This document shows positions 9,822 to 31,962 of a DNA stretch of 32,368 nt, one piece after another. The stretch is taken from the NCBI GenBank assembly GCA_024763245.1, contig JANTFW010000015.1, positions 1-32,368 on the forward strand, read 5' to 3'. Under the pieces are notes generated by a model, which ran no database searches, had not been told where the DNA came from, and was given only the letters and a program-made list of their open reading frames with translations. The DNA is from Flavobacteriaceae bacterium. Its GTDB lineage: Bacteria; Bacteroidota; Bacteroidia; Flavobacteriales; Flavobacteriaceae. The stretch's first letter is position 1, and each line of letters opens with the position of its first letter. The translations under genes and the position numbers were made by a program.

Positions 9822-11195
9822 TTATAAACAATGTTCTCTAATAAAGTCTTCCAGCTCTTCCATACTCTCTATAGTTTCAATCTCTCCGGTTGCTGAAATT
9901 TCGATTTGAACGGGGAATGATATTTCTGCACCTTCACTGGTAGGATTAAAATATTGTTGAAGCTGTGTAAATGACAGTACGCTATATGTCATTCCTTGGA
10001 AACTTACTTCTATAGGATATTCAAAATCAAAACAAGAACCTACATAATCCATAAAGTCTACAGGTATTATAGCACACTCAGGCACTTCCCAATCTATTTC
10101 TTCTGAACAATTAGGCATATCATTAATACTAATTTCTAGGAAGTCTTCTCCAAAGCCTGCAGTTGGGAAATGTTCAATAGTTATGGGTAAGTCTGCTAAT
10201 GCATAATAATTAAATAATCCATAATCATTTATGTAAACATCAAAGTATTCGTTGCCGGGGTTATCATATTCAAAGTTAATTGTGATGCTGTAAGTACCGT
10301 CATCATTACAATCACCCACAGTAACTTCAAGATTACTAATATCACAATCATCATCAAAATTACAATCTACAAAATCATTTTCGGTAAAGCCTTCACAAAG
10401 TGCAAAACACTCATTAGGGAATGGAATAGTCATATCACTATCCATATCATATACACATACCGGATCATATTCATCATAACAATTACAATCATCGACATTG
10501 CCATCATAGGCATAGCAATCATCCATTAAGTCAAAGAAGTCGTAGATGTTTTCAATTACGATTTCTTCATCGTCTAAATTCACTACGGTAATAGGAAATA
10601 CAAAATTGGGTTCGTACATTGCATCTTGTGTTTCAAAGAATTCTACCAATTCATCATTTGAATTAACGGTTACGGTGGTTCCGTCTGATGCAATCATATC
10701 AATAGGATATACAAACTCAAAACAATCAACCACAACATCTTCATCGTCCCAAACATCAAAATCATCACAATTTTCTAGAACCTCGACTAAATCTTGTTCA
10801 CTATTGATAGTTACGGTTGTCCCGTCCTGAAGGAGAACTACATCAAAAGGAAATACGACACCTACAATGTAGAGTTCATTGGTTTCGTTCATCAATACTT
10901 GAATAAGGCCTTGAAAACTATCAACACTTACAAGGGTTCCGTTGTTGTATTCAAATTGTAAGGGATAGACAAAGTCAAAACAAAATCCATCATCATTATC
11001 ATTGGTTGAGCGTTCTGTGCTGCTATATCTTCCTGACGGATCGTTTGTAGCCTTAATTTTGTTTAAGACAGTTCGTAAAGCAATACTTGCTGTAGCATCC
11101 GGTTGGTCGGGAGTTACCGGACCATTATCCTGACAAGAGGTTAGGGCTAACATGCTAAATGTAATTGCCACTAAAATAAATTTGATTTTTTTCAT
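9822..11195 (-). CDS. Acidic repeat lipoprotein with a Kazal-like motif
   Basis: The 457-residue protein has a lipoprotein signal (MLALTSC, Cys21) and a very acidic body rich in Asp and Glu. I see six copies of a repeat of about 30 residues, in three pairs. Each has a (F/V)x(Y/F)P(I/L/V) strand, often a DGTTVTVNS-like turn and then a short helix such as DELVEFF; starts are near residues 72, 112, 158, 196, 388 and 425. Between pairs two and three lies CNCYDEYDPVCVYD...PNECFALCEG (about 237-269), which fits the cysteine and DPVC/N-C-A-C pattern of a Kazal protease-inhibitor domain, followed by an Ig-like stretch (about 285-375). It is divergent from the ECF/FecR/TonB operon and may be its surface partner or target. 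I do not recognise a named family for the repeats. Confidence 0.75.
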   Translation of the reverse strand: MKKIKFILVAITFSMLALTSCQDNGPVTPDQPDATASIALRTVLNKIKATNDPSGRYSSTERSTNDNDDGFCFDFVYPLQFEYNNGTLVSVDSFQGLIQVLMNETNELYIVGVVFPFDVVLLQDGTTVTINSEQDLVEVLENCDDFDVWDDEDVVVDCFEFVYPIDMIASDGTTVTVNSNDELVEFFETQDAMYEPNFVFPITVVNLDDEEIVIENIYDFFDLMDDCYAYDGNVDDCNCYDEYDPVCVYDMDSDMTIPFPNECFALCEGFTENDFVDCNFDDDCDISNLEVTVGDCNDDGTYSITINFEYDNPGNEYFDVYINDYGLFNYYALADLPITIEHFPTAGFGEDFLEISINDMPNCSEEIDWEVPECAIIPVDFMDYVGSCFDFEYPIEVSFQGMTYSVLSFTQLQQYFNPTSEGAEISFPVQIEISATGEIETIESMEELEDFIREHCL

Positions 11196-15234: not shown

Positions 15235-15738
15235 TTATGTAAAAATAATTTGTGTTCTGTCGCCATCACACATTTCATAAAATTCACCGATGGTTATGAT
15301 GTCTTCTACATCATCCCAAAGGTCTTTTTTTTCGAGTTTGAACATATCAACGGCAAGTTTACATGCAAAAACACGTCCACCACCTGCAGTAATCATTTCA
15401 AGAAATTCATCCACCGGTGGCATATCAAGGGCTTCCATTTGCTTACGCATCATACCTGAAACAGCAGCTTCAACACCTGGCAAACCACCTAAAGCTGTTG
15501 GAAAAGGTAAACCTCCCGGCATACGCATAGCAGGATTTCCGGTAGTGGCGGTATGTAGATGGTTCATCGTTTTTTTTGTAATACCATCAAGCCCGAAAAA
15601 AGTAAAGAAAACATTGGTTTCAATACCTTCCATAACGGCACCATTTGCCATAACCAAGGAAGCATAAACATCTTCGAGGCTTCCTTTAGCACAAATCAGA
15701 CAGACCTTTTCTAAAGGTTTTTTTTCTTTTGAATCCAT
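15235..15738 (-). CDS. DsrE/DsrF-like sulfur-carrier family protein (DsrE2-like)
   Basis: The ATG at 15738 gives 167 residues; an upstream TTG at 15807 would run into the tusE-like gene and is rejected. The DsrE fold is seen in KVCLICAKGSLEDVYASLVM, the strand NVFFTFFGLDGI and GRVFACKLAVDMF. Cysteines are at 13, 16 (a CxxC), 126 and 157. Cys126 lies where DsrE-type proteins carry the persulfide-bearing cysteine. The middle part (PAMRMPGGLPFPTALGGLPG) resembles DsrE2-type proteins of sulfur oxidisers. As last gene of the SQR operon it probably accepts sulfane sulfur and passes it on, perhaps to the adjacent TusE-like protein. No TusA gene is present in the window. Confidence 0.85.
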   Translation of the reverse strand: MDSKEKKPLEKVCLICAKGSLEDVYASLVMANGAVMEGIETNVFFTFFGLDGITKKTMNHLHTATTGNPAMRMPGGLPFPTALGGLPGVEAAVSGMMRKQMEALDMPPVDEFLEMITAGGGRVFACKLAVDMFKLEKKDLWDDVEDIITIGEFYEMCDGDRTQIIFT

Positions 15739-15772
15739 TTTATAAAAAATTAAATTAGAACTATGTGTATTG

Positions 15773-16084
15773 TTAAACACAACTACTTGGTTTAGGTATT
15801 CCGGCAATCTTTGAAGAGAATTTTAAAGGGCCTTTAGGAAATAATTTATAAAGCTCTTTGATATCTACAACTCCTGATTTACCCACTTTTCTAATGGAAA
15901 GTGCTTCGCCGGCAGCTGTTTTTTCACGAAGATATTTTAATACCTCAAAATGCTTGTCGCTAAGCTCGATGTTTAGGTCTTTCGCTATTTCTTTTGCGAT
16001 ATCCTCATCCCATTGAGACATATCTTCCAGATATCCATCTTCTGTTACTTTGATTTGTTTTCCTGCTATTGTTTTTTCTGACAT
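15773..16084 (-). CDS. TusE/DsrC-family sulfur relay protein
   Basis: A 103-residue cytoplasmic protein of the TusE/DsrC family. The family body is seen in DGYLEDMSQWDEDIAKEIAKDLNIELSDKHFEVLKYLRE, KELYKLFPKGPLK and the C-terminal arm AGIPKPSSCV. The penultimate Cys102 (CysA) is the sulfur-carrying residue. The second cysteine of true DsrC, 11 residues earlier, is Ser91 here, so the protein is of the single-cysteine TusE-like type and cannot form the DsrC trisulfide between two cysteines. It sits between the DUF1641 gene (24-base gap) and the DsrE-like gene. No dsrAB or tusBCD genes are seen. Confidence 0.9.
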   Translation of the reverse strand: MSEKTIAGKQIKVTEDGYLEDMSQWDEDIAKEIAKDLNIELSDKHFEVLKYLREKTAAGEALSIRKVGKSGVVDIKELYKLFPKGPLKFSSKIAGIPKPSSCV

Positions 16085-16108
16085 AATATTTGAATTTAAA
16101 TTAATTAT

Positions 16109-16789
16109 TTATTCGTTTTTAATGGTCACGTCTTTAGATACATTTTTCATAAATGTAATACCAAATCCAAGGGCTTTTTTCATTTCGGGACTGTTCATTT
16201 CTTTAAGAACTCTCCAAACGGAATAAGAAGGAACACTTTCGGTTTCCATTGCGTTAAATGCTTTAACGGCATTTTCTACACTGCCCAACACTTCCGGTTG
16301 GGTCATTTCTTTAACAATAGAAAGAATAGAGACCACACTATCGGCTAATTCTCTTAAATCTTGAGGAGAGAAACCGGTTACAATATTATCCATTATAGGG
16401 GTTAATTCCTTAAAGAATTCAAAATACCCTTTTTGTTCAAAATGGTGTAATTGTTTGGTGAAATCAATAATCATTTCATTGGCAATCGGGCCTACTTCTT
16501 TGCTTAAATCTACAGCCATTTCTAGGGTGTCCATCACCATTTTAATATTGCCAACATTCCTCAGGAAAGTTATGGCTAAATCAGTCAATTTTGCTGGATC
16601 TAATTCAATGTTTCGTTTGTCTAGTTCTTCTACAGTCGAGTCATAAGCATCTTTTCCGATAATTCTTAAATCACTGACTAAATCTTCTACAACGCTTGCA
16701 TTGAGTTTTTGCTGATGTACATAGCCAATAATCAAATCTAATTTTCTGTCTAACGCATCTATTTGTGCTTGTATATTTTGATCTTCCAT
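16109..16789 (-). CDS. DUF1641-family protein
   Basis: A 226-residue soluble, largely helical protein with no signal peptide. The central and C-terminal parts (LRNVGNIKMVMDTLEMAVDLSKEVGPIANEMI, then GFSPQDLRELADSVVSILSIVKEMTQPEVL and ALGFGITFMKNVSKD) match the DUF1641 pattern. The family's function is unknown; from memory it is often encoded beside sulfide:quinone oxidoreductase-like flavoproteins or formate dehydrogenase genes. Here it is 11 bases downstream of the SQR-like gene, in the same operon, which supports a role in that enzyme's work or assembly. Confidence 0.8.
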   Translation of the reverse strand: MEDQNIQAQIDALDRKLDLIIGYVHQQKLNASVVEDLVSDLRIIGKDAYDSTVEELDKRNIELDPAKLTDLAITFLRNVGNIKMVMDTLEMAVDLSKEVGPIANEMIIDFTKQLHHFEQKGYFEFFKELTPIMDNIVTGFSPQDLRELADSVVSILSIVKEMTQPEVLGSVENAVKAFNAMETESVPSYSVWRVLKEMNSPEMKKALGFGITFMKNVSKDVTIKNE

Positions 16790-16800
16790 TTTGTCGTAGC

Positions 16801-18033
16801 TTAAACTCGTTTTTTACCTGCCATAGTCATGTCTGCTTCTATGGGTAGTTCTTTACCTTTTAATAGGATATGCCAATATATCCATCGAAATAACACTTTA
16901 CCATAGTGATTCATTTTCGTGTTTTTAAGTAAACCGAAAGGTCCTATGCCCGGTAATGGAAAAGTTCCGGGTAGTGGCTCTGTAGTGTAGTTAAAGTCAA
17001 TCAATGCTCCTTTTCCATAACCTGTTTCGATATAGCAGTTTGCATGCCCGTCAAATTCGGCAGGAAGTTTTCTACCCTCCATAGCTGCTAAAAGGTTTTC
17101 CATAAGAATTTCACCCGCAAAGTGTGCAACCGAACCGGCTTTGGATGTAGGGATGTTTGAAGCATCTCCAATAACAAAAATATTTTCAAAATCTTCCGAT
17201 TGTAAGGTGTATTTATTGGTTCTTATATAATTCATGTCATCTCCCAGTCCACTTCTTTCAACCATATCCGATCCCATATTTACCGGAACAATGGTTAGAA
17301 TATCAAAGGGAATCTCCCTTTCATCATACGAAATAATTTTTTTGTTGTCGTTGTCGACACGTTCTAGGTAGAAATCGGCTACAACGTCAATATTCTTTTC
17401 TTCTAACAAATCACCGAGCATTTTTGAAGCGACGGGTTTGGTAAAAGCTCCGGACATTAGGGTAACATAAGAAATGTTTACTTTATCTCTAATTCCTCTT
17501 TTGGTGAAGTAGGCTTCTGCAAGACAAACAAACTCAATAGGGGCAACAGGGCATTTATAGGGTAATTCGGGAATACACATCACTAAACTGCCACCTTCCC
17601 AGTCTTTGAATTTTTTATGTAAAGCTATAGCACCTTCTATAGTGTAGAAGTCAAAAATATCTTTATACCAGAGTTTGTCTTTTAATCCCGGCGTTTCCGA
17701 CGGTCTGGTTTGTGTTCCGGTAGCCACGATTAGAAAATCATAATTTAATACTTTTCCACCCTCGAGGTATACTTTATTTTCTTTACCTTCAATTTTATCA
17801 ATAGGACTAAAAATTACATTCGTTCCCGGAGGAAAAAAATCATATTTAGGTTTGGTAACATCTTGTTTGTTATAGATGCCAAAAGGAATGAATAAAAAAC
17901 CAGGTTGATAATAATGTGTTTTAAATTGATCTACGATGGTAAGTTCCCATTCGTCAAGATCTAATTCTTTATAGAGCTTATTTAGCATCATCGTTCCAGC
18001 TGTTCCTGCACCTAATATCAATAATTTTTTCAT
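16801..18033 (-). CDS. sqr: Sulfide:quinone oxidoreductase-like flavoprotein
   Basis: A 410-residue FAD-dependent pyridine-disulfide-family protein. It has the N-terminal FAD motif LLILGAGTAGTMMLNKL, the ATGTQTRP loop, Cys161 in PYKCPVAP, the second FAD motif NIFVIGDASNIPTSKAG (Asp290) and Cys333 in HANCYIETGYGKG. Cys161 and Cys333 sit where SQR enzymes hold the redox-active cysteine pair. The C-terminus (FRWIYWHILLKGKELP) is amphipathic and could bind the membrane. SQR oxidises sulfide to sulfane sulfur (polysulfide or persulfide) and reduces quinone. The SQR subtype is not certain. It is the first gene of a four-gene operon, with a CRP/FNR-type promoter. Confidence 0.87.
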   Translation of the reverse strand: MKKLLILGAGTAGTMMLNKLYKELDLDEWELTIVDQFKTHYYQPGFLFIPFGIYNKQDVTKPKYDFFPPGTNVIFSPIDKIEGKENKVYLEGGKVLNYDFLIVATGTQTRPSETPGLKDKLWYKDIFDFYTIEGAIALHKKFKDWEGGSLVMCIPELPYKCPVAPIEFVCLAEAYFTKRGIRDKVNISYVTLMSGAFTKPVASKMLGDLLEEKNIDVVADFYLERVDNDNKKIISYDEREIPFDILTIVPVNMGSDMVERSGLGDDMNYIRTNKYTLQSEDFENIFVIGDASNIPTSKAGSVAHFAGEILMENLLAAMEGRKLPAEFDGHANCYIETGYGKGALIDFNYTTEPLPGTFPLPGIGPFGLLKNTKMNHYGKVLFRWIYWHILLKGKELPIEADMTMAGKKRV

Positions 18034-18409: not shown

Positions 18410-20677
18410 ATGAGTAATTTTAATCGTAGAGATTTTATTAAAATATCAGGAGCCTCTGCTGCAGGTGTTGCTTTAACTCCAAAACTCTCTGGAGTTTTTC
18501 AAAACTTTTTTCAAAAAGAAGGAAAACATTTGTTAGAGAGTGATGCCGTTAAAGTCCCGACAGTTTGTGAGGTTTGTTTTTGGAATTGTGCCGGATGGGT
18601 CTATAAAGACCAAGAAGACAATATCAAAAAAATAATCGGTAACGACGATGATCCGCATAGTAATGGACGTTTATGCCCACGTGGAACAGGAGGTTTAGGC
18701 ATGTATTATGATGATGATCGTCTTAAAAAACCACTCATTAGAGTGGAGAAAGAGGGTCAACAAAGTTTTAAGGAAGTTTCTTGGGAGGAAGCATTTGATG
18801 TGATTGAAAAAAACATGAAAGCTATCGACAAGAAATATGGCAAAGAAAGTATGGCGCTATTGTTTCACGGAAAAACAGGACCTCACTTCGAGCATTTATT
18901 TAAAGCTTGGGGGTCTGATACTATGGGAGAGCCTGCCGGAGCACAGTGTTTAATTACCAGAGAAGCTGGTTTTATAGCTACCTATGGTGCTGGTTTAGCT
19001 TCTCCGGAACCTACCGATGTTCGCAATGCCGATTGTTTAGTTTTAATTGGAAATCATATCGGTGAAAATATGCATAATGGTCATGTTCAAGAGGTGTCAA
19101 CACTAATTGATAGAGGAGGTGAAATTATTACGGTAGATCCGCGTTTTTCAACAGTAGCCTCTCATTCTACAACCTGGTTGCCTATTAAACCTTCTACAGA
19201 CCTAGCGCTTCTCTTGTCTTGGATGAATGTTTTAATCAACGAAAACCTTTATGATAAAGACTATGTAGAACAATATACCTATGGATTTGATTTGTTAGCA
19301 GAGCATGTGCAAAAATATACACCCGAATGGGCAGAAGGTGTAACCACCATACCTGCTGCGGATATTTATAAAACGGCTCGTATAATGGGTGCTGCTGCAC
19401 CTAAGACGATTGTGCATCCGGGAAGACACACTGCTTGGTATGGCGATGATACTCAAAGAACAAGAGCTATTGCTATTTTAAATGCTTTATTAGGATCTTG
19501 GGGACGAAAAGGCGGTTTTTATTTTCCTGAAAAATTAAAATTACCTAAGGAAGCACATCCACCATTCCCAAAACCAAAATGGTCTTGGAAGGATATTTCC
19601 AAGAAAAAGCACAAATTGGCCATAATGGGTATTACCAATGAAATTTTGGATAATGCATTACCCGAATATAAAGGACCTCATAAAGTTAAAGGTCTCTTTA
19701 TTGCCGCTACCAACCCCTTACAATCAATCCCTGATGAGGCTAAGATTAAGAGAGCTTTAGATAATCAAGAGTTTATTGTAGTAGTAGATACTATGCCAAG
19801 TGAAATTACAGGCTATGCCGATGTGGTTCTTCCGGAGGCTACTTATTTAGAACGTTTGGATCATTTAAGAACTGCACATCATAGACAGCCTAACGTTGCT
19901 TTACGTTACCCTGCTGTAATGCCTAAATATGATAGTAAACCGGGTTGGTGGATTGCTAGAAAGATAGGACTTCGTCTAGGTTTGGACGATTTTTATGAAT
20001 GGGAAGATTTTGAAGAAGTGTTGGACTGGCAATTAAAACAAGTGGGCTCCTCTATGGAAGAGATGAAAAAAGAGGGCGTAAAATTATTTCCTAGAAACAC
20101 CCCTATGTATTTAGAAGATGGAGAAGAATATTGGTTTAACACAAACACCGGAAAAATAGAACTATTCTCTACAGACTTAGATGAGTGGGGCTACGATCCG
20201 ATGCCGGTTTATAAATCACATGGCGATGTACCTGCTGGTTTCTTACGATTAATATATGGTAGATTGCCAATGCATACTTTTGGTAGAACACTTAATAATC
20301 CCAACCTTAATGATCTTAAGAAAGAACCCAACTTATGGGTCAATCCAAAAGTGGCCAATATTTATGGTTTAGAGAATAACCAAGAAGTATGGTTGCAAAA
20401 TCCTAAAGGTAAAGTGAGTTCATTCCCTATTCACGTTAGAATTACAGAAAGAATTCGTCACGACTCGGTCTTCTTACCACACGGTTTTGGTAATAAGGGA
20501 CGCATTATGGTGAACGGTAAAGTAGAGGAAATGAGTAGAACCTATGGTAGAGGAATTAGTGATGCAGAGATGATTAGTAATATAGAAATTGATCCGGAAA
20601 CAGGAGGTACCGGAATGCGTAACAACTTTGTTACAATATTAACTGAAAAACCAACTAAAACAGAAGAAAAATCATGA
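18410..20677 (+). CDS. Molybdopterin oxidoreductase, polysulfide/thiosulfate reductase (PsrA/PhsA)-like catalytic subunit
   Basis: A 755-residue enzyme with a twin-arginine signal, NRRDFIKISGASAAGVAL, so it should act in the periplasm. The N-terminal [4Fe-4S] site has Cys53, Cys56, Cys60 and Cys89 (CEVCFWNC, then GRLCPRG). Cys180 in EPAGAQCLITREAG is the likely molybdenum ligand, as in the PsrA/PhsA group. Further landmarks are GNHIGENMHNGH, DPRFSTVASHS, VVVDTMPSEITGYADVVLPEATYLE and the C-terminal dinucleotide-binding domain. Substrate could be polysulfide, thiosulfate or another sulfur compound, and the direction of reaction is not readable. It leads an operon with its own ferredoxin, NrfD-type anchor, sulfur transporters and rhodaneses. 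Confidence 0.9.
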   Translation: MSNFNRRDFIKISGASAAGVALTPKLSGVFQNFFQKEGKHLLESDAVKVPTVCEVCFWNCAGWVYKDQEDNIKKIIGNDDDPHSNGRLCPRGTGGLGMYYDDDRLKKPLIRVEKEGQQSFKEVSWEEAFDVIEKNMKAIDKKYGKESMALLFHGKTGPHFEHLFKAWGSDTMGEPAGAQCLITREAGFIATYGAGLASPEPTDVRNADCLVLIGNHIGENMHNGHVQEVSTLIDRGGEIITVDPRFSTVASHSTTWLPIKPSTDLALLLSWMNVLINENLYDKDYVEQYTYGFDLLAEHVQKYTPEWAEGVTTIPAADIYKTARIMGAAAPKTIVHPGRHTAWYGDDTQRTRAIAILNALLGSWGRKGGFYFPEKLKLPKEAHPPFPKPKWSWKDISKKKHKLAIMGITNEILDNALPEYKGPHKVKGLFIAATNPLQSIPDEAKIKRALDNQEFIVVVDTMPSEITGYADVVLPEATYLERLDHLRTAHHRQPNVALRYPAVMPKYDSKPGWWIARKIGLRLGLDDFYEWEDFEEVLDWQLKQVGSSMEEMKKEGVKLFPRNTPMYLEDGEEYWFNTNTGKIELFSTDLDEWGYDPMPVYKSHGDVPAGFLRLIYGRLPMHTFGRTLNNPNLNDLKKEPNLWVNPKVANIYGLENNQEVWLQNPKGKVSSFPIHVRITERIRHDSVFLPHGFGNKGRIMVNGKVEEMSRTYGRGISDAEMISNIEIDPETGGTGMRNNFVTILTEKPTKTEEKS

Positions 20678-21207
20678 GATATGGAATGGCAATAGAAATC
20701 AACAAATGTGTTGGTTGCGCTGACTGTGTAGTAGCATGTCAAACGGAAAATAATGTTCCTATTGGTTATTCAAGAGATTGGATTATTGAAAAGGTTAAGG
20801 GGCAGTACCCTGATGTTTTTTTGCATTTTGAATCGCAACGTTGTAACCATTGTGACGATACACCTTGTGTAAGGACTTGTCCTACCGGAGCCAGTCATGT
20901 TATTGAGGGTGGTATTGTTAAGGTTACACAAGATGAGTGTATAGGATGTGGTGCTTGTATAGAAGCTTGTCCTTACGATGCCAGATATTTCCATCCCGAT
21001 GGCTATGTCGATAAATGTACATTTTGTGACCATAGAGTACAAGATGGTCTAGATCCTGCTTGTGTGGCTGTTTGTCCTACAACGTGTATGCATTTCGGTG
21101 ATTTAGATGATCCGGATAGCGATATTTCTAAATTAATTAGAAAAAGAGAGAATTTTACACTATTACCAGAGGCAGGAACTGCTCCTCAAATTTATTATTT
21201 AAAATAG
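20674..21207 (+). CDS. Four-cluster ferredoxin-like electron transfer subunit (PsrB-like)
   Basis: A 177-residue iron-sulfur protein with sixteen cysteines in four groups: CVGCADCVVACQTENN, CNHCDDTPCVRTCP, CIGCGACIEACP and CTFC...CVAVCP. This is the DmsB/PsrB/NrfC arrangement with four [4Fe-4S] clusters. It should carry electrons between the quinone site in the membrane subunit and the molybdenum centre. It has no signal peptide, so it would be co-exported with its Tat-tagged partner. Its ATG overlaps the stop of the catalytic subunit by 4 bases, which supports a fixed complex. Confidence 0.95.
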   Translation: MRYGMAIEINKCVGCADCVVACQTENNVPIGYSRDWIIEKVKGQYPDVFLHFESQRCNHCDDTPCVRTCPTGASHVIEGGIVKVTQDECIGCGACIEACPYDARYFHPDGYVDKCTFCDHRVQDGLDPACVAVCPTTCMHFGDLDDPDSDISKLIRKRENFTLLPEAGTAPQIYYLK

Positions 21208-21213
21208 AATAAG

Positions 21214-22209
21214 ATGGAAGAAAATATTTTAGCAACGGCACGAGATATTCATGGATTGTATCCTCATGTACACGTTTGGGGATTCCCAATTGCAGCCTAT
21301 TTGTTTTTAGGCGGTTTAGCAGCTGGTATTTTGTTATTTGCGACAATTTATTACCTAAGAGGTAAGGCGGAAGATATGCCTTTTACAGTAAAGATAGCAC
21401 CTATTTTTACATTTATTATTATTATGATTGGCTTATTTTTACTAGTCTTTGATTTGCATCATAAATTGTATGTATGGCAACTATTTTTAACCTTTAGAAT
21501 TGAATCACCTATGTCTTGGGGGGCTTGGACACTAGTTGGGGTTAGTATATTCTCACTACTTTGGCCTTTGAGTTATATAGATGATATTGAAGCCTATCTT
21601 CACGAGAGAGGATGGAGACGATTAGATGGTATTACCACTTTTATAAGAAATCTTGAGCACAACTGGAAAATACCTAGATTTATTATTCTAACTTTTAGAA
21701 AATACAGAACCTTTTTTGCCTACATCTTGTTGTTCTTATCGGTGATCTTAGGTATTTATACAGGTATTCTATTATCTGCATTTAATGCGCACCCCTTGTG
21801 GAATAACCCTATTTTAGGTCCTTTATTCCTTACATCCGGAGTTTCCACAGGATCTGCCTTTGTAATGTGGTTGAGTAATAATCATAAAGAACGTAAATTA
21901 ATGTCGACCATTGATATGGTATTAATTGCTGTTGAATTGTTTTTTATCATTCATATGATTATGGGAATGCAAGCCGGTCCTGAAGTCTTTAAACAAGCCG
22001 CCCATTTGTTTTTAGGAGGCGAGTTTACAGTTATTTTTTGGGTAATCTTTGTGGGTATGGGTTTGGTATTACCGTTTGTTTTAGAAGTCTTAGAATTAAG
22101 AGGTTTTAAAATTCATCCTGCTTTCCCCGCTCTTTTGGTATTGTTAGGTGGTTTGTTGTTTAGAATTATTATGGTACAAGCCGGACAAATCTCTGAATAT
22201 CCTTTTTAA
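21214..22209 (+). CDS. NrfD/PsrC-type membrane anchor subunit
   Basis: A 331-residue membrane protein with about eight to nine hydrophobic helices. The N-terminal HVHVWGFPIAAYLFLGGLAAGI, the stretch LFLLVFDLHHKLYVWQLFLTFRIESPMSWGAWTL and later GPLFLTSGVSTGSAFVMWLS are hallmarks of the NrfD/PsrC family, which holds the quinone or quinol site of such complexes. It follows the ferredoxin gene after 6 bases. Together the three genes give a PsrABC-like quinone-linked periplasmic complex. Confidence 0.93.
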   Translation: MEENILATARDIHGLYPHVHVWGFPIAAYLFLGGLAAGILLFATIYYLRGKAEDMPFTVKIAPIFTFIIIMIGLFLLVFDLHHKLYVWQLFLTFRIESPMSWGAWTLVGVSIFSLLWPLSYIDDIEAYLHERGWRRLDGITTFIRNLEHNWKIPRFIILTFRKYRTFFAYILLFLSVILGIYTGILLSAFNAHPLWNNPILGPLFLTSGVSTGSAFVMWLSNNHKERKLMSTIDMVLIAVELFFIIHMIMGMQAGPEVFKQAAHLFLGGEFTVIFWVIFVGMGLVLPFVLEVLELRGFKIHPAFPALLVLLGGLLFRIIMVQAGQISEYPF

Positions 22210-22231: not shown

Positions 22232-22765
22232 ATGAAAAATCAAAAACGAAATAAATATATGAATCCCTATGTAGCCGGATTGTTAATGGGTTTGCTGATT
22301 ATTGCGGCTTACTTCTTTTCCGGCGAAGGATTAGGGTCAAGCGGTGGCTTTAGAGATCTTGCCATAGGTGCAATAGATACGGTTTCTCCTACTTATGCAG
22401 AGAGTAACACCTTTGTAGCCCCTCATGTTACAGGAGAAGAGGGAGCCACACACACTTGGTTGGTTTATGAATTACTGGGTGTTATTTTTGGAGCGATAAT
22501 TTCTGCAGCGCTTTATGGTCGTCTAAAATTTGTGGTTGGAAAAGCACCACATCTTACGAATAAAAAGAGACTTTATTTTGCCTTAATTGGTGGGGCATTG
22601 TGGGGTGTCGGAACACAGTTAGGTAGAGGTTGTACCTCTGGTTTGGTGTTATCAGGTATGGCCGTTAACTCGTTATCCGGCTATATCGGATTGATAGGCA
22701 TCTTTGGCTTCGGCTTTATTTTTGCCGCAATATTTAAGAAAATTTGGATAAAAACTAATAAATAA
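22232..22765 (+). CDS. YeeE/YedE-family sulfur transporter, half-size, copy 1
   Basis: A 177-residue membrane protein with about four to five hydrophobic helices. The motif LGRGCTSGLVLSG (Cys134) is the YeeE/YedE signature; in the thiosulfate transporter YeeE (TsuA) such cysteines line the uptake path. Between helices one and two lies a periplasmic-looking insert (about 45-75). The full-length family has about 350 residues, and this gene plus the next make up that length, so they are probably the two halves of one transporter. ATG codons at 22232 and 22259 are both possible; the first is used here. Confidence 0.88.
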   Translation: MKNQKRNKYMNPYVAGLLMGLLIIAAYFFSGEGLGSSGGFRDLAIGAIDTVSPTYAESNTFVAPHVTGEEGATHTWLVYELLGVIFGAIISAALYGRLKFVVGKAPHLTNKKRLYFALIGGALWGVGTQLGRGCTSGLVLSGMAVNSLSGYIGLIGIFGFGFIFAAIFKKIWIKTNK

Positions 22766-22772
22766 TAAAAAT

Positions 22773-23390
22773 ATGGGACCATTATATCCACAAGAATTAT
22801 TAAACCCTGAATACAATCTTTTAATAGGTTTTATAATAGGAATCGGTTTTGGATTTTTATTAGAAGCTTCGGGTTTTACCAATACAAGAAAATTAGCCGG
22901 AATTTTTTACGGTTATGACGCCACAGTGATAAAAGTATTTTTTACAGCGGCCCTTACTGCTACTATAGGATTATTCTTTATGCATTTTATGGGATGGATA
23001 GATATAACAGCTACATTTTTCCCCAAAACTTTTTGGATACCGACTTTGATTGGTGCTGTCATTATGGGACTTGGGTTTATTATTGGTGGTTTTTGCCCGG
23101 GAACAAGTCTTTCGGCTGCTGTTACCGGAAAAATTGATGCTATGGTATTTATCATTGGTGTAATGTTAGGAATATTCGGCTTTATCTTTAGCTTTAATGC
23201 TTGGAAAGGGCTGAGAGCTTCAGGTAATATGGGTAAAGTTAATATTACCGAATGGTTAGGCATCCAAGAAGGGGTATTTATTTTCATTTTTGCACTAGTT
23301 GCTTTTGCCTCTTTTGTAGGTTTCCAGTGGTGGCAAGATAAATGGAAAAAGAATATGTCGAAGGAAGATATTGATGATTTAGGTTTATAA
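22773..23390 (+). CDS. YeeE/YedE-family sulfur transporter, half-size, copy 2
   Basis: A 205-residue membrane protein with about five hydrophobic helices and the second family motif, GFIIGGFCPGTSLSAAVTGK (Cys108). The N-terminal GFLLEASGFTNTRKLAG is also typical of this half. It starts 7 bases after the first half and should work with it to bring thiosulfate or another sulfane-sulfur compound across the inner membrane. The C-terminal tail (WQDKWKKNMSKEDIDDLG) is soluble. Confidence 0.88.
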   Translation: MGPLYPQELLNPEYNLLIGFIIGIGFGFLLEASGFTNTRKLAGIFYGYDATVIKVFFTAALTATIGLFFMHFMGWIDITATFFPKTFWIPTLIGAVIMGLGFIIGGFCPGTSLSAAVTGKIDAMVFIIGVMLGIFGFIFSFNAWKGLRASGNMGKVNITEWLGIQEGVFIFIFALVAFASFVGFQWWQDKWKKNMSKEDIDDLGL

Positions 23391-23406
23391 TATTAAAGTG
23401 AAATTT

Positions 23407-24036
23407 ATGAAACGTAGAGAAATTATTATTGTAGGGATACTATTAATGCTAGGCTTTGTAGCTATGTTTTTACCTAATACAGAACCTTTTAAACACGTAA
23501 TTAGCGAGAAGAAACTTTTGTATGAAGCAAATAAAGAAGGTAGATACGTATCAACCGACGAAGTGGCTCAGGCTATTATGGAAAGTGATCCCAGCTATTT
23601 GTTGATTGACCTAAGAACACCTGCAGAGTTTGCAAAGTTTACTATTGATGGTGCTATTAATATCCCTTATGCTAAAATAATGGATGAAGCTAATTTGGAC
23701 TATTTTGACCAAGATGTGTATACAACGGTTCTCTTTTCTAATGGTAGTAGCTTAGCCGATCAGGCTTGGATGCGACTTAGAAGTTATGATTATAAAGGGA
23801 ATAAAGTTATGAAAGGAGGAGTTAATGAATGGTATAAAACGATCATTAATCCGCAAAAACCTAAAGATATAGATACGGCCGAAGCTGAAGCGACTTACCT
23901 TTTTAGAAAAGGAGCGTCTATCTTTTTTACTGGAGCACAGGTAGTAGGTAATGCAGCACCGACAAAAAAATCAAAAAAAGCGGCTAAACCTATTGTCAAG
24001 AGAAAGAAAAAAGAAGTAAGTGGTGGTTGTGGTTAA
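23407..24036 (+). CDS. Membrane-anchored rhodanese-like protein without active-site cysteine, GGCG tail
   Basis: The ATG at 23407 gives 209 residues; a GTG nine bases upstream is possible. One N-terminal membrane helix (about 5-23) anchors a periplasmic rhodanese domain (about 46-150; LLIDLRTPAEFAKFTIDGAINIPY, then VMKGGVNEWY). Where active rhodaneses have Cys, the loop reads VLFSNGSSLA, so Ser111 replaces it. A basic A/K/P/S/T-rich linker leads to IVKRKKKEVSGGCG at the C-terminus. Cys208 in that tail is the only cysteine of the whole protein. The gene follows the YeeE/YedE pair after 16 bases. The domain probably no longer transfers sulfur by its classical site. Confidence 0.88.
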   Translation: MKRREIIIVGILLMLGFVAMFLPNTEPFKHVISEKKLLYEANKEGRYVSTDEVAQAIMESDPSYLLIDLRTPAEFAKFTIDGAINIPYAKIMDEANLDYFDQDVYTTVLFSNGSSLADQAWMRLRSYDYKGNKVMKGGVNEWYKTIINPQKPKDIDTAEAEATYLFRKGASIFFTGAQVVGNAAPTKKSKKAAKPIVKRKKKEVSGGCG

Positions 24037-24161
24037 TGACTTGAAATAATAAGTAGAAAAATAGGAATTTAATGAGGTGCACGCTCCAATTATTTGATAC
24101 ACGCAGAAACAAGTAATAGTGCCTTTCATTAGTTACTTAATAAAAATCAAAATTTAGACAA

Positions 24162-24755
24162 ATGAAAAAAATACTGATAGTAGTACTAAGCTTAAGCCTT
24201 TTGTCTTCTTGTATTTCAAAAGAAGGAATTACACAAGATGGCGCTAATCAAAATTGTGAAGCGAGTGTTGTCCCCAAAGATGATTTGGTCAATCTTCTTT
24301 ATAGTAAAGATCTAGAAGGCGTGCAGTTTATTGATATAAGAACACCCCATCAATATGCAATGGGGCATTTACCGAATGCGATTAATATGCCCATGAATAA
24401 TTTTTTTAATACCAAAGAGTTCAATAAGATTAATAAAGAAGATGTGCTAATTCTTTACGGCGAAGATGCATCCAGCCCTAAAATGTTAGCATTAATGGCA
24501 GGTCATTTTACCAATAGTAAATTTTATATTGCCGGAGGTGGGTATGATTTTATTAAAAATAAAATTCTTAACGGTTTGGGATATAACTCTGGTATTTACG
24601 ATGATGAAACTCCTTTGGTAGATTTTCAACAAGCTGTAAATGAAATTAAAAGTAGAGCAGGCGTAGCGCCTAATGCTGCTAAAAAAGCCAAACCTACTAG
24701 TACAAAACCTATCGTTAAAAGAAAGAAAAAAGAAGTTAGTGGTGGTTGTGGATAA
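24162..24755 (+). CDS. Rhodanese-like lipoprotein without active-site cysteine, GGCG tail
   Basis: A 197-residue protein with lipoprotein signal (LSLLSSC, Cys17). The rhodanese-like domain spans about 36-145: FIDIRTPHQYAMGHLPNAINMP, LILYGEDASSP, FYIAGGGYDFI. The position of the catalytic cysteine is Gly100, so the classical activity should be missing. The C-terminal linker rich in A, K, P, S and T is followed by the same IVKRKKKEVSGGCG tail as in the neighbours. Apart from lipidated Cys17 the only cysteines are Cys32 and tail Cys196. A 125-base gap separates it from the previous gene; I see no clear promoter or terminator there, so it may still be in the operon. Confidence 0.86.
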   Translation: MKKILIVVLSLSLLSSCISKEGITQDGANQNCEASVVPKDDLVNLLYSKDLEGVQFIDIRTPHQYAMGHLPNAINMPMNNFFNTKEFNKINKEDVLILYGEDASSPKMLALMAGHFTNSKFYIAGGGYDFIKNKILNGLGYNSGIYDDETPLVDFQQAVNEIKSRAGVAPNAAKKAKPTSTKPIVKRKKKEVSGGCG

Positions 24756-24807
24756 AAGTACCATTCTATGATTTTAGTATGTTCTAGAACTTAAAAAAAC
24801 AGAAACA

Positions 24808-25971
24808 ATGAAAAATATAACCTATACTTTTGCAATACTTCTAATGGTTTTGATTTTCTCTTCTTGTAGTAAACAAGAAAATTATTCCGGAGAAGCAGTT
24901 GGCAAAACAGTTGATTTTGATAGCATTATTAAAAAGGAAAATGCAGAACCTTTAGCTGAAATTTATTACAAGCATGGAAATTTTATCAATACGAAGGAGT
25001 TTCCTCCCATTGTCAAAGCACCGCAAGTACTAGAAAATGCGGCGGATTGGTTGTTGGTCGATATTAGAAGTGCAGATGCTTATGAAGCCGGACATATCAA
25101 TGGTGCCTACAATGTGCCCAAAGACGAAATAATTGACTTTTTAATGACAAAACACAAAGCGGCTTCATATGAAAAAGTAGTTATTATCTGTTATTCAGGT
25201 CAGATGGCTTCTTATGTAACCGGTGTATTGCGTTATTCAGGATTTGATAATGTATATGTGATGTTATTTGGAATGGCTGCTTGGAATTCGCAATTTTCAG
25301 GAATCCTAAAGAAAGGGTATGGAAAGCGTTTTACCAATATGATTGTAAAATCGGATGAAAACGCCGAAATAAAAGATGAAGCACATGAAGCGGTAAAATC
25401 AAAGGATATAGCTACTGCTGAAAAGGAATTACCGGTTTTAGACAAAACGATACCAACGGTGTTAATCTTGGAACGTGCTCGTAAACTATTAAAGCAACCT
25501 AGACAAGAATTTTTATTAAAAGCTGCTGAGTTTTTTCCTGAATACACTTCAAATCCCGATAAGTTTTATCCTGTTTTTTATCTCAGTAAACAAAGATTTG
25601 ATGAAGGGCATATCAAAGGGGCTCATTTATATATTTCTCGTAAAGATTTGAGTTTAGATCATAAATTGTCCGATTTGCCCAAGGACAAAGAAATTTTAGT
25701 ATACTGCAAAACAGGTCATACCGGAGGAAACACTACAGCCTATCTAGATATGTTGGGTTACAAAGCTCGTAATTTGATGTTTGGCTATAATTCCTTCAAA
25801 TACAATGTAACATCTAATACGGTAGATAATTATATCAATGATTTTCCCGTTATAGTAGGTAAACAACGTACCAGTAATAAAGTGGTGGCTACTTCAAGCC
25901 CCAAGAAAGCAAATACAAAAGTCAAAATAGTTAAAAGAAAAAAGAAAGAAGTTAGCGGTGGTTGTGGCTAA
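24808..25971 (+). CDS. Double-rhodanese lipoprotein with active-site cysteines, GGCG tail
   Basis: A 387-residue protein with lipoprotein signal (LIFSSC, Cys20) and two rhodanese domains. The first (about 64-170) has LLVDIRSADAYEAGHINGAYNVP and the active loop CYSGQMAS (Cys128). The second (about 230-350) has VFYLSKQRFDEGHIKGAH and the loop CKTGHTGG (Cys300). Both loops keep the cysteine that carries persulfide in rhodaneses, unlike the two upstream relatives. The protein ends in the same IVKRKKKEVSGGCG tail (Cys386). It is the last gene before a strong terminator and is likely the enzymatically active sulfurtransferase of the set. Confidence 0.9.
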   Translation: MKNITYTFAILLMVLIFSSCSKQENYSGEAVGKTVDFDSIIKKENAEPLAEIYYKHGNFINTKEFPPIVKAPQVLENAADWLLVDIRSADAYEAGHINGAYNVPKDEIIDFLMTKHKAASYEKVVIICYSGQMASYVTGVLRYSGFDNVYVMLFGMAAWNSQFSGILKKGYGKRFTNMIVKSDENAEIKDEAHEAVKSKDIATAEKELPVLDKTIPTVLILERARKLLKQPRQEFLLKAAEFFPEYTSNPDKFYPVFYLSKQRFDEGHIKGAHLYISRKDLSLDHKLSDLPKDKEILVYCKTGHTGGNTTAYLDMLGYKARNLMFGYNSFKYNVTSNTVDNYINDFPVIVGKQRTSNKVVATSSPKKANTKVKIVKRKKKEVSGGCG

Positions 25972-25995: not shown

Positions 25996-26028
25996 TAAGG
26001 CGTATATTTTTTATACGCCTTATTTTTT
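25996..26028 (+). terminator. Rho-independent terminator of the sulfur operon
   Basis: A perfect 11-bp stem, TAAGGCGTATA (25996-26006) with TATACGCCTTA (26012-26022), a TTTTT loop and a T run to 26028. It separates the rhodanese operon from enolase. Confidence 0.9.
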
Positions 26029-28994: not shown

Positions 28995-29042
28995 CCACTT
29001 TTAGAAAGTCTAAAAATCTTTCTAAAAGTGGTTTTTTTTTTT
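28995..29042 (+). terminator. Strong Rho-independent terminator after gltA
   Basis: A perfect 14-bp stem, CCACTTTTAGAAAG (28995-29008) with CTTTCTAAAAGTGG (29018-29031), followed by eleven T residues. An alternative upstream start for the next gene at 29028 lies within this hairpin and is therefore rejected. Confidence 0.95.
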
Positions 29043-29057
29043 GATATTTGCGTTCTT

Positions 29058-29972
29058 ATGTTACAATTAAATATTCAAGATGAAACGTCACGCTTACGTG
29101 CTGTATTGTTAGGAACAGCGGAGAGTTTTGGGGGAATACCCAAATTAGAAGAGGCTTATGATCCTAAATCAAAAGAACATATAAAATCAGGAACTTATCC
29201 TGAGGAGAAAGCGATGAGGAGAGAGATGCAAGCCTTCTATGAGGTTTTAAAAAAATATGATGTTCGTGTTTATAGACCTAAAATCATTAAGGACTATAAT
29301 CAAATATTTGCTAGGGATATTGGCTTTGTAATTGAGGATTTCTTTATCAAAGCTAATATTTTACCGGACAGAGCTAGAGAATTAGACGCAATTCAATACC
29401 TAATTGATCAAATGGATGCGAGTAAAGTAATTATACCTCCGGAAGCGGCTCATGTAGAAGGCGGTGATGTAATGCCTTGGGGTAACTATATTTTTGTAGG
29501 AACCTATAGAGGTGATGACTATCCTGATATAATTACAGCACGCACTAATATGAAGGCTGTCCAGTTTTTAAGAGATTTGTTCCCTGAAAAAAAAGTCGTA
29601 AGCTTTGATTTGGTGAAATCAAATACGGAACCAAGAGATAATGCCTTGCATTTAGATTGCTGTTTTCAACCGGTGGGTACGGATAAGGCAATACTCTATA
29701 AGGGAGGTTTTAAGAATCTTGATGAATATCAATTTTTAGTGGATTTATTTGGAAGAGAAAATATTTTCGAAATCTCAAGAGATGAAATGTATCGGATGTT
29801 CTCTAATGTATTTTCAATTTCCAAGGATATAGTGGTTTCAGAGAAAAATTTTACCAGACTCAATAATTGGCTTAGGGAACAAGGCTTTACCGTAGAGGAA
29901 GTTCCTTACGCTGAGATTAGTAAACAAGAGGGCCTACTACGTTGTAGTACTTTGCCTCTTATTAGAGATTAA
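29058..29972 (+). CDS. Arginine deiminase/dimethylargininase-family amidinohydrolase
   Basis: Starting at the ATG at 29058 the protein has 304 residues. It belongs to the guanidino-group-modifying family (arginine deiminase, dimethylarginine dimethylaminohydrolase and citrulline hydrolase CtlX). Landmarks are ARDIGFVIEDFFI, the acidic pair in VEGGDVM (Glu134, Asp137), the catalytic His198 in DNALHLDCCF and the catalytic Cys296 in GLLRCSTLP. The members are hard to tell apart by eye. The following carbamate kinase and ornithine carbamoyltransferase genes favour release of citrulline from arginine. GATATTTG (29043-29050), one base off the -7 consensus, lies just before the start. Confidence 0.85.
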   Translation: MLQLNIQDETSRLRAVLLGTAESFGGIPKLEEAYDPKSKEHIKSGTYPEEKAMRREMQAFYEVLKKYDVRVYRPKIIKDYNQIFARDIGFVIEDFFIKANILPDRARELDAIQYLIDQMDASKVIIPPEAAHVEGGDVMPWGNYIFVGTYRGDDYPDIITARTNMKAVQFLRDLFPEKKVVSFDLVKSNTEPRDNALHLDCCFQPVGTDKAILYKGGFKNLDEYQFLVDLFGRENIFEISRDEMYRMFSNVFSISKDIVVSEKNFTRLNNWLREQGFTVEEVPYAEISKQEGLLRCSTLPLIRD

Positions 29973-29994
29973 TTTTAAATAAATATAAATATAT

Positions 29995-30942
29995 ATGAGT
30001 AAACTAGCTGTTATTGCCCTTGGAGGAAATGCTATTATTAGAGGAGATGAACGGGGAACAATTCAACAACAATATAAGAATTCAAGTGACACTATTCATA
30101 ATTTAACCTATTTGTTAAAAGAAGGGTATAACTTGGTTTTAAGTCATGGTAATGGTCCACAGGTCGGAAATATTTTATTACGTAATGATGCAGGTGAGGA
30201 AAAATATGATATTCCACAGATGCCTTTAGATATCTGTGTTGCCGATTCACAAGGAGGCATTGGATATATGCTCGAAAAGATGTTAAAGAATATCCTAAAA
30301 GAAGAAGGTATAGATAGAGAGGTAGTTACTATTGTAACTCAGGTAGTAGTTTCTAAAGATGACCCTGCTTTTGAAAATTATACCAAACGCGTAGGAAAAT
30401 TATATTCAAAGAAAGAGGCTGATGCATTAAGCGAACGTAAAGGATGGATTTTTAAAAAAAGTCCTAAACGTGCCGATGCTTGGCGTCGTGTGGTGCCATC
30501 ACCTAAACCCATTCAAATAATGAATGATCAAATCATAAAAAATTTAGTCAATTCCGGAGTTATTGTTATTGCTGCAGGAGGTGGTGGTGTTCCGGTATAT
30601 TACGATGACGAAGGATTATTACAATCACTAGAAGCCGTTATTGATAAAGATGCTTCTTCTTCGTTGTTAGCATCTAATATCAATGCTGATGAGTTCTATA
30701 TCTTGACAGATGTACCTTACGTATACAGTAATTTTGGGACTCCAAACCAAGAGATCGTTGAATTGATCAATAAAGAGAAAATTCAAAAAATGATAAAAGA
30801 AGGGGCTTTTGGCGAAGGTAATATGTTACCAAAAATTGAAGCAGCACTTCGGTTTGTCGAAAAAGGAGGGCAAAAGAGTGTCATTACTGAAGCTAGTAAG
30901 CTCGAAAATAGAAAATACGGAACACGAATTACTTTACATTAA
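29995..30942 (+). CDS. arcC: Carbamate kinase
   Basis: Carbamate kinase transfers phosphate from carbamoyl phosphate to ADP, the ATP-yielding last step of the arginine deiminase pathway. The 315 residues show the amino-acid-kinase fold with carbamate kinase motifs: VIALGGNAI at the N-terminus, LVLSHGNGPQVGNILLRND, WRRVVPSPKP, GVIVIAAGGGGVPV and DKDASSSLLA, then FGEGNMLPKIEAALRFVEKGG. It lies 22 bases behind the amidinohydrolase and 21 bases before the ornithine carbamoyltransferase gene, so all three should be co-transcribed. Confidence 0.95.
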   Translation: MSKLAVIALGGNAIIRGDERGTIQQQYKNSSDTIHNLTYLLKEGYNLVLSHGNGPQVGNILLRNDAGEEKYDIPQMPLDICVADSQGGIGYMLEKMLKNILKEEGIDREVVTIVTQVVVSKDDPAFENYTKRVGKLYSKKEADALSERKGWIFKKSPKRADAWRRVVPSPKPIQIMNDQIIKNLVNSGVIVIAAGGGGVPVYYDDEGLLQSLEAVIDKDASSSLLASNINADEFYILTDVPYVYSNFGTPNQEIVELINKEKIQKMIKEGAFGEGNMLPKIEAALRFVEKGGQKSVITEASKLENRKYGTRITLH

Positions 30943-30963
30943 TTTTAATTTATTAAACGAACT

Positions 30964-31962
30964 ATGTACAATTTAAGAAATAGAAATTTTCTAAAACTTT
31001 TAGATTTATCTTCTAAGGAAATTAAGTTTTTAATAGACTTGGCTGCCGATCTAAAAAAAGCAAAATATACAGGAACAGAGCAGCAGAAACTAAAGAATAA
31101 GAATATCGCTTTAATTTTTGAAAAATCCTCTACCCGAACTCGATGTGCTTTTGAAGTAGCTGTACACGATCAAGGAGGAAACGTAACCTATTTAGGTCCT
31201 TCGGGTAGCCAGATAGGAGGTAAGGAAACTATGAAAGATACCGCTCGTGTGTTAGGAAGAATGTACGATGGAATTGAATATAGAGGATTTGCTCAGCAAA
31301 CCGTTGAAGAGTTGGGAGCATTTGCCGGTGTCCCCGTATGGAACGGCTTGACAAATGAATACCATCCTACTCAAATTTTAGCTGATTTTTTAACCATGCA
31401 AGAACACTCTGATAAACCACTACACCAAGTGCGCTTTGCTTATTTGGGCGATGCTCGAAATAATATGGGAAACTCGTTAATGATTGGTGCTGCTAAAATG
31501 GGCATGGATTTTAGAGCTGTAGCTCCTAAATCTTTGCAACCAGATGCTGAGTTGGTAAAGCAAGCGAAAGAAATTGCTCAAAAAACCGGTGCCAAGATAA
31601 GCATCACGGATAATGTAGAAGAAGGCGTAAAATCTTGTGATTTCCTTTATACGGATGTTTGGGTGTCTATGGGAGAAGCTCCTGAAGTTTGGAAAGAACG
31701 TATTGCGTTATTAATGCCCTACCAAATCAATAAAAAGACAATGGATTTAACCGAAAATCCTAAGGTCAAATTTATGCATTGCTTACCGGCATTTCACAAT
31801 CGAGATACCAAAGTGGGAGAAGATATTTATCAAAAATTTGGTATTGATGCTATGGAGGTAACTGAAGAAGTTTTTGAATCGGAAGCTTCTATTGTCTTTG
31901 ATGAAGCTGAAAATAGACTGCATACCATTAAAGCCGTAATGGTTGCTACATTAGGGAGTTAA
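30964..31962 (+). CDS. argF: Ornithine carbamoyltransferase
   Basis: The enzyme interconverts ornithine plus carbamoyl phosphate and citrulline plus phosphate. The 332 residues carry the carbamoyl-phosphate motif [15 protein letters not shown] (STRTR at 56-60), [14 protein letters not shown] and HCLPAFHN with the active-site cysteine. The Cys-Leu-Pro site and length fit ornithine rather than aspartate carbamoyltransferase. In this operon it probably works in the catabolic direction (as ArcB), but sequence alone does not settle that. No arginine/ornithine antiporter gene is seen in the window. Confidence 0.95.

Follow-up and report, generated by a model that had tools for sequence, protein, structure and literature searches.

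Proteins of the DsrC/TusE type carry a mobile C-terminal arm with a penultimate cysteine. In thiosulfate oxidation by the Sox system, sulfur is carried by SoxY on the cysteine of a C-terminal GGCGG motif (PMC6067878, PMC5336275, PMC9774590). Sud of Wolinella succinogenes is a periplasmic polysulfide-binding protein that feeds Psr (PMC2628731), and Desulfurivibrio is reported to have Psr operons that include YeeE and rhodaneses of the periplasmic lipoprotein type (PMC12142623). YeeE has itself been proposed to relay thiosulfate via cysteines to a further cysteine on YeeD at the cytoplasmic side (PMC11073785). Open-access literature on rhodaneses with GGCGG, and on YeeE together with a rhodanese and a polysulfide/thiosulfate reductase in Bacteroidota, yielded no account of the tail analysed here or of a pathway of this kind.

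The window analysed here is the whole of a 32,368-nucleotide stretch from a Flavobacteriaceae bacterium (assembly GCA_024763245.1, contig JANTFW010000015.1), in which genes of these kinds lie in a row on the forward strand. The row opens with a PsrA/PhsA-like, Tat-exported molybdopterin enzyme (18410–20677; best PDB match the Thermus polysulfide/thiosulfate reductase 2vpw, E 4e-170), followed by a PsrB-like 4Fe-4S subunit (20674–21207) and an NrfD/PsrC-like membrane subunit (21214–22209). Two halves of YeeE (both PF04143) come next, half A (22232–22765) with a single cysteine in GRGCTSG and half B (22773–23390) with a single cysteine in GGFCPGT; both motifs were found again in most of the related loci described below. 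Three rhodanese genes complete the row, namely rhd1 (23407–24036, with an upstream in-frame GTG at 23398), rhd2 (24162–24755) and rhd3 (24808–25971). The operon probably terminates directly after rhd3, where an inverted repeat precedes a run of T residues (25996–26022); in the consensus scan this repeat appeared on the reverse strand only, and the forward-strand T run was read from the sequence itself. Further sulfur genes run divergently on the reverse strand (15235–18033) and encode DsrE2-like, DsrC/TusE-like and DUF1641 proteins and a sulfide:quinone reductase (SQR)/FCSD-like flavoprotein. The DUF1641 gene (16109–16789) is placed between the SQR-like flavoprotein and DsrC/DsrE2, and the DsrC/TusE-like protein (15773–16084) ends in PSSCV, with the penultimate arm cysteine only and the second arm cysteine apparently replaced.

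As the first-pass annotation had claimed, rhd1, rhd2 and rhd3 are open reading frames for three rhodanese-like proteins with one and the same C-terminal tail. Each product matches Rhodanese (PF00581) above the Pfam cut-off, and no other Pfam family was above threshold. Rhd1 consists of a single N-terminal membrane anchor, a rhodanese domain devoid of cysteine (loop FSNGS) and a flexible arm ending in GGCG. Rhd2 carries the lipobox LLSSC and a rhodanese domain without a loop cysteine (LYGEDAS), and Rhd3 the lipobox FSSC and two rhodanese domains that do have loop cysteines (CYSGQ and CKTGH). All three translations end in IVKRKKKEVSGGCG, encoded on the forward strand at 23992–24033 in rhd1, 24711–24752 in rhd2 and 25927–25968 in rhd3. 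The remaining sequences differ as widely as had been stated, with a pairwise body identity of 28–31% once the last 14 residues are removed, and the earlier count was reproduced exactly: 8 of the 14 tail codons differ and every change is synonymous. A recoding reading of the tail cysteine was rejected, its codon being a plain TGT in all three tails. In a whole-genome search with a 16-residue query, the tail was confined to Rhd1, Rhd2 and Rhd3; the one other GGCG-stop match in this genome, at the end of a 21-codon stretch, is attributed to chance. Given the anchor of Rhd1, the lipoboxes of Rhd2 and Rhd3 and the Tat export of the putative partner, Rhd1–3 and their tails are predicted to be periplasmic.

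The closest working analogue of the tails would be the periplasmic SoxY arm (PMC6067878) rather than TusE/DsrC, which had originally been offered as the analogy. The likeness to SoxY lies in the predicted periplasmic location of the putative carrier and in a flexible C-terminal arm that bears a glycine-flanked cysteine. The exact GGCGG end was found only in two rhodaneses of a separate cluster (L082), the operon rhodaneses ending in GGCG or GGC. Unlike SoxY, the operon proteins have the rhodanese fold, occur as several paralogs, each anchored N-terminally, and belong to a Psr/NrfD/YeeE operon. With PF00581 as their only family they fall outside the SoxY family PF13501; a search of the genome with PF13501 gave no match, as did its positive control, and no soxZ or other sox genes were present among the profiled neighbours of the operon. 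With DsrC/TusE the tails share the cysteine-bearing mobile arm, and a gene of that type is present in the window, but DsrC/TusE is cytoplasmic and has an unrelated fold and another arm sequence, and Rhd1–3 do not match the DsrC profile (PF04358). The tailed rhodaneses sit where Sud would act, beside a Psr-type molybdoenzyme. They differ from Sud in that Rhd1 and Rhd2 lack the polysulfide-binding loop cysteine (which Rhd3 has), in the placement of a cysteine on a C-terminal arm, and in being membrane-anchored. Thiosulfate uptake by YeeE/YeeD (TsuA/TsuB) likewise combines a YeeE cysteine relay with an external cysteine protein, and YeeE halves are present in this operon; YeeD, however, has a TusA fold and works at the cytoplasmic side, whereas the tails are predicted to be periplasmic.

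The operon, in the form psrA-psrB-nrfD-yeeE-yeeE-rhd1-rhd2(-rhd3), has 12 further occurrences in genomes or contigs of Bacteroidota. These loci were collected from relatives of Rhd3 (four Flavobacteriales contigs), from tail matches (four more genomes) and from a molybdoenzyme search covering 395 genomes of the class; the sampling overall comprised fewer than 2000 genomes of one phylum. The order psrA-psrB-nrfD-yeeE-A-yeeE-B-rhd1-rhd2 is maintained in each of the 12, and a third, double-domain tailed rhodanese is present in the Flavobacteriales group. PsrA/B/NrfD-like genes thus lie upstream of the rhodaneses in 13 of 13 aligned loci, a genetic linkage like that of a Sud-type Psr feeder. Absence of the tail from orthologous clusters had been named as a refuting outcome, and the reverse was found: a C-terminal GC, with the cysteine last or penultimate, is present in 34/34 aligned rhodaneses from the 13 loci, and a GGC or GGCG end in 33 of them. 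Four loci, the most distant ones, end in the cysteine itself (EGGC, KPEGGC, VAGGC and SGGC/GGGC). The glycine-flanked cysteine is retained even in lineages with a whole-protein identity of 33–40% for Rhd1 and 20–24% for Rhd2. Over the last 35 residues, by comparison, the net charge ranges from −1 to +15, and in one locus (L062) the basic run is absent, the stretch being even acidic, with the tail cysteine retained. Judged from these alignments, the core of the tail is the glycine-flanked cysteine, and the basic stretch is a variable trait of lineages. Of the polybasic tail regarded as a unit, then, the cysteine with its glycines stood, and the basic part did not, distant orthologs keeping GGC or GC only.

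Some members of these clusters depart from the common pattern. Rhd1 of L080 carries the arm KKKKKMVQGGCS, and the rhodanese-family neighbour in second position (L080:3075-3593) has neither a tail nor any cysteine, so not every paralog needs a tail. In distant operons, the double-rhodanese proteins encoded after the tailed pair (L063:5661-7665 and L064:190-1206) are without a GGC tail; it therefore looks as if the Flavobacteriales group gained the Rhd3 tail, or other lineages lost it. Besides a Porin_O_P protein, a full-length YeeE and two other rhodanese proteins, the L082 cluster contains two rhodanese lipoproteins ending in TGGGCGG (L082:5663-6145) and SGGCGG (L082:9203-9703), the latter without a loop cysteine. 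A GGCGG-stop search in the order of genome G1012 yielded no further rhodanese among the inspected loci, and tblastn with a GGCGG rhodanese against 277 genomes (E 1e-15) gave no match, the query's own genome apparently lying outside that sample. Plasmid collections held generic rhodaneses only.

A joint alignment suggests where the cysteine of the rhodanese fold has gone. At the catalytic-loop position, Rhd1 has serine in 12 and glycine in one of 13 proteins and Rhd2 has glycine in 11 and alanine in two of 13, while the cysteine is kept in 15/16 Rhd3 domains. The cysteine that opens the active-site loop of a catalytic rhodanese is accordingly present in Rhd3 only and missing from Rhd1 and Rhd2. 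None of the 13 Rhd1 proteins has any cysteine besides that of the tail, one listed upstream cysteine of the L038 protein preceding the chosen start and hence being uncounted. The AlphaFold model of Rhd1 predicts an N-terminal helix (residues 3–20), a confident rhodanese fold that aligns with solved rhodaneses at Z of about 12–15 (VIA-align), and disorder over residues 178–209; the model of Rhd3 is weaker overall, with residues 337–387 likewise disordered. As modelled, Rhd1 is an anchor, a rhodanese domain without cysteine, a flexible arm and a single cysteine. Rhd1 and Rhd2 would then be scaffolds of a pseudo-rhodanese type, the role of the lost loop cysteine perhaps having passed to that of the tail.

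Based on these features, we think that the tails probably are swinging carrier arms for sulfane sulfur, resembling SoxY but built on a rhodanese fold, and that they serve the split YeeE, the Psr-type molybdoenzyme or both. The initial suggestion of a selected tail on a mobile sulfane-sulfur arm gains strength from the conservation among orthologs, the predicted disorder and the apparent replacement of the catalytic cysteine. Because of this replacement by a cysteine-tipped tail, Rhd1 and Rhd2 most likely act as swinging arms that move sulfur between enzymes and transporters on the outer side of the membrane. For the sulfur chemistry at the tail cysteine, its partner, the flow direction and what the basic residues do, we infer the following. 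The N-terminus would hold each rhodanese at the membrane, with the C-terminal cysteine on a flexible, usually basic linker of ~30 residues. This glycine-flanked, sterically free cysteine could take up sulfane sulfur in the periplasm as a persulfide, polysulfide or thiosulfonate. The source would probably be thiosulfate or polysulfide handled by the cysteine-competent double rhodanese Rhd3; alternatively, the tail cysteine might be loaded directly from polysulfide or thiosulfate. The arm would then exchange sulfur, as donor or as acceptor, with the Psr-type molybdoenzyme and/or with the YeeE-A/YeeE-B channel at its periplasmic mouth; the channel may relay sulfur via its single cysteines. The basic residues could attract anionic sulfur species, and docking at one common partner site could make the tails of a genome nearly identical. 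The conserved gene order is equally consistent with Psr and with YeeE as the partner of the arm.

The tails of one genome do resemble each other more than their bodies would predict. Over the eight residues preceding GGC(G), within-genome paralogs have 6.83 of 8 in common vs. 4.26 of 8 for orthologs of different genomes, a value reached in none of 5000 permutations; with GGCG genomes only, tail similarity is 7.36 within vs. 6.16 between genomes (again 0/5000). In the bodies the relation is reversed, identity being 0.28 within a genome vs. 0.45 (Rhd1) and 0.37 (Rhd2) between orthologs. At the codon level, the window tails have 24/42 in common where 19.7 are expected from codon usage (p = 0.13), and since the silent sites are thus at the codon-usage expectation, recent copying does not explain the identity of these tails and a recent duplication in the window was rejected. 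The same does not apply to all relatives: 38/42 are shared in L035 (0/2000 simulations as high), and the paralogous tails of L040 (p = 0.002) and L039 (p = 0.014) also have an excess of identical codons, which points to occasional tail copying there. The original statement that no recent DNA duplication was involved thus holds for the window. A partner common to all tails of a genome, combined with occasional conversion, fits the concerted change best; that DNA copying adds to the likeness of tails in some lineages counts against the explanation we favour.

Concerted change of this kind would also be expected if the tail were a docking or redox-tether tag that binds one partner site, in the Psr complex or YeeE, and if its cysteine formed a regulatory or structural disulfide and carried no sulfur. 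The cysteines of the SoxYZ carrier arm do, in fact, form disulfide cross-links as well (PMC5336275). We nevertheless regard this as unlikely: the basic and linker residues, which should be fixed in a tag, vary across families with the glycine-flanked cysteine alone being kept, and the loss of the loop cysteine from a sulfur-transfer fold is better explained by a tail cysteine that took over the chemistry.

In eukaryotic Rab proteins, polybasic cysteine ends are recognised for modification. Superficially, Rhd1–3 resemble such proteins, with GGC coming after a basic stretch at the C-terminus, so that the GGC(G) end might be conceived as a signal for lipidation, a prenyl-like modification or sorting. 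This is very improbable for proteins that already possess an N-terminal membrane anchor or lipobox, that lack a C-terminal hydrophobic segment and whose tail is not shared by any further protein of the genome. Nor does the tail resemble C-terminal sorting signals (LPXTG, GlyGly-CTERM etc.), which have a hydrophobic helix and serve several unrelated proteins of a genome; it is hydrophilic and predicted to be disordered, and has three carriers only in the genome. The retention of the cysteine in L062, where the basic stretch is missing or acidic, speaks against such a signal and likewise weakens the former proposal of a tag on polybasic cysteine ends. The census of basic GGCG ends that had been called for places KKKxxxGGCG-stop in three of 396 genomes of the order, exclusively in rhodanese clusters, the reversed-pattern control giving zero. 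Other GGCG-stop matches outside rhodanese clusters, among the inspected loci of the order, are short or antisense-looking frames and were set aside as chance. A looser basic-x-GGCG pattern gave four matches outside the genome itself in 395 genomes of the phylum, and the one inspected ends a 33-codon frame. When 395 genomes of the class were searched with an Rhd1 profile, the matches whose context was inspected lay in YeeE clusters or beside the other rhodaneses of such clusters.

Joint binding of a metal (Cu or Zn), or of an Fe-S precursor destined for the Psr complex, by the cysteines of several tails appears just as remote. Several tailed copies per operon could form a multi-cysteine site, but each tail contributes one cysteine, with no conserved His, Met or Asp beside it, and the neighbours are sulfur genes. 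That the tail is neutral and was merely spread by recent gene conversion or duplication is scarcely credible, for despite the excess codon identity in L035, L040 and L039, the silent sites of the window are at expectation while the amino acids are identical, and the glycine-flanked cysteine is kept across genera and families in strongly diverged proteins.

If the tails are swinging carriers of sulfane sulfur, rhodanese scaffolds would have arrived independently at the SoxY strategy of a free C-terminal Gly-Gly-Cys substrate arm, their catalytic cysteine having shifted to the arm, and there would be a concrete route for periplasmic sulfane sulfur to Psr-type enzymes and YeeE channels. More tentatively, and with somewhat more doubt than conviction, we propose for Bacteroidota a separate system of extracytoplasmic sulfur trafficking, in which the cysteine moved from the loop to a SoxY-like arm, the co-evolving tail shared by several copies is a docking code for Psr and the split YeeE, and a chain of single cysteines connects periplasm and cytoplasm in either direction. 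A rhodanese with a GGC, GGCG or GGCGG end beside yeeE could serve as a sequence marker for Bacteroidota sulfur metabolism, and the single-cysteine design of the parts makes them directly testable by mutagenesis and mass spectrometry.

Elsewhere in the window, the reverse strand encodes a large, internally repetitive lipoprotein (9822–11195) that is rich in Asp/Asn, contains cysteine and matches no Pfam family, near sigma-factor-like, anti-sigma-factor-like and TonB-dependent-receptor-like genes. Downstream of the operon, genes for arginine deiminase-like (PF02274 by profile), carbamate kinase-like and ornithine carbamoyltransferase-like proteins stand in a row (29028–31962).
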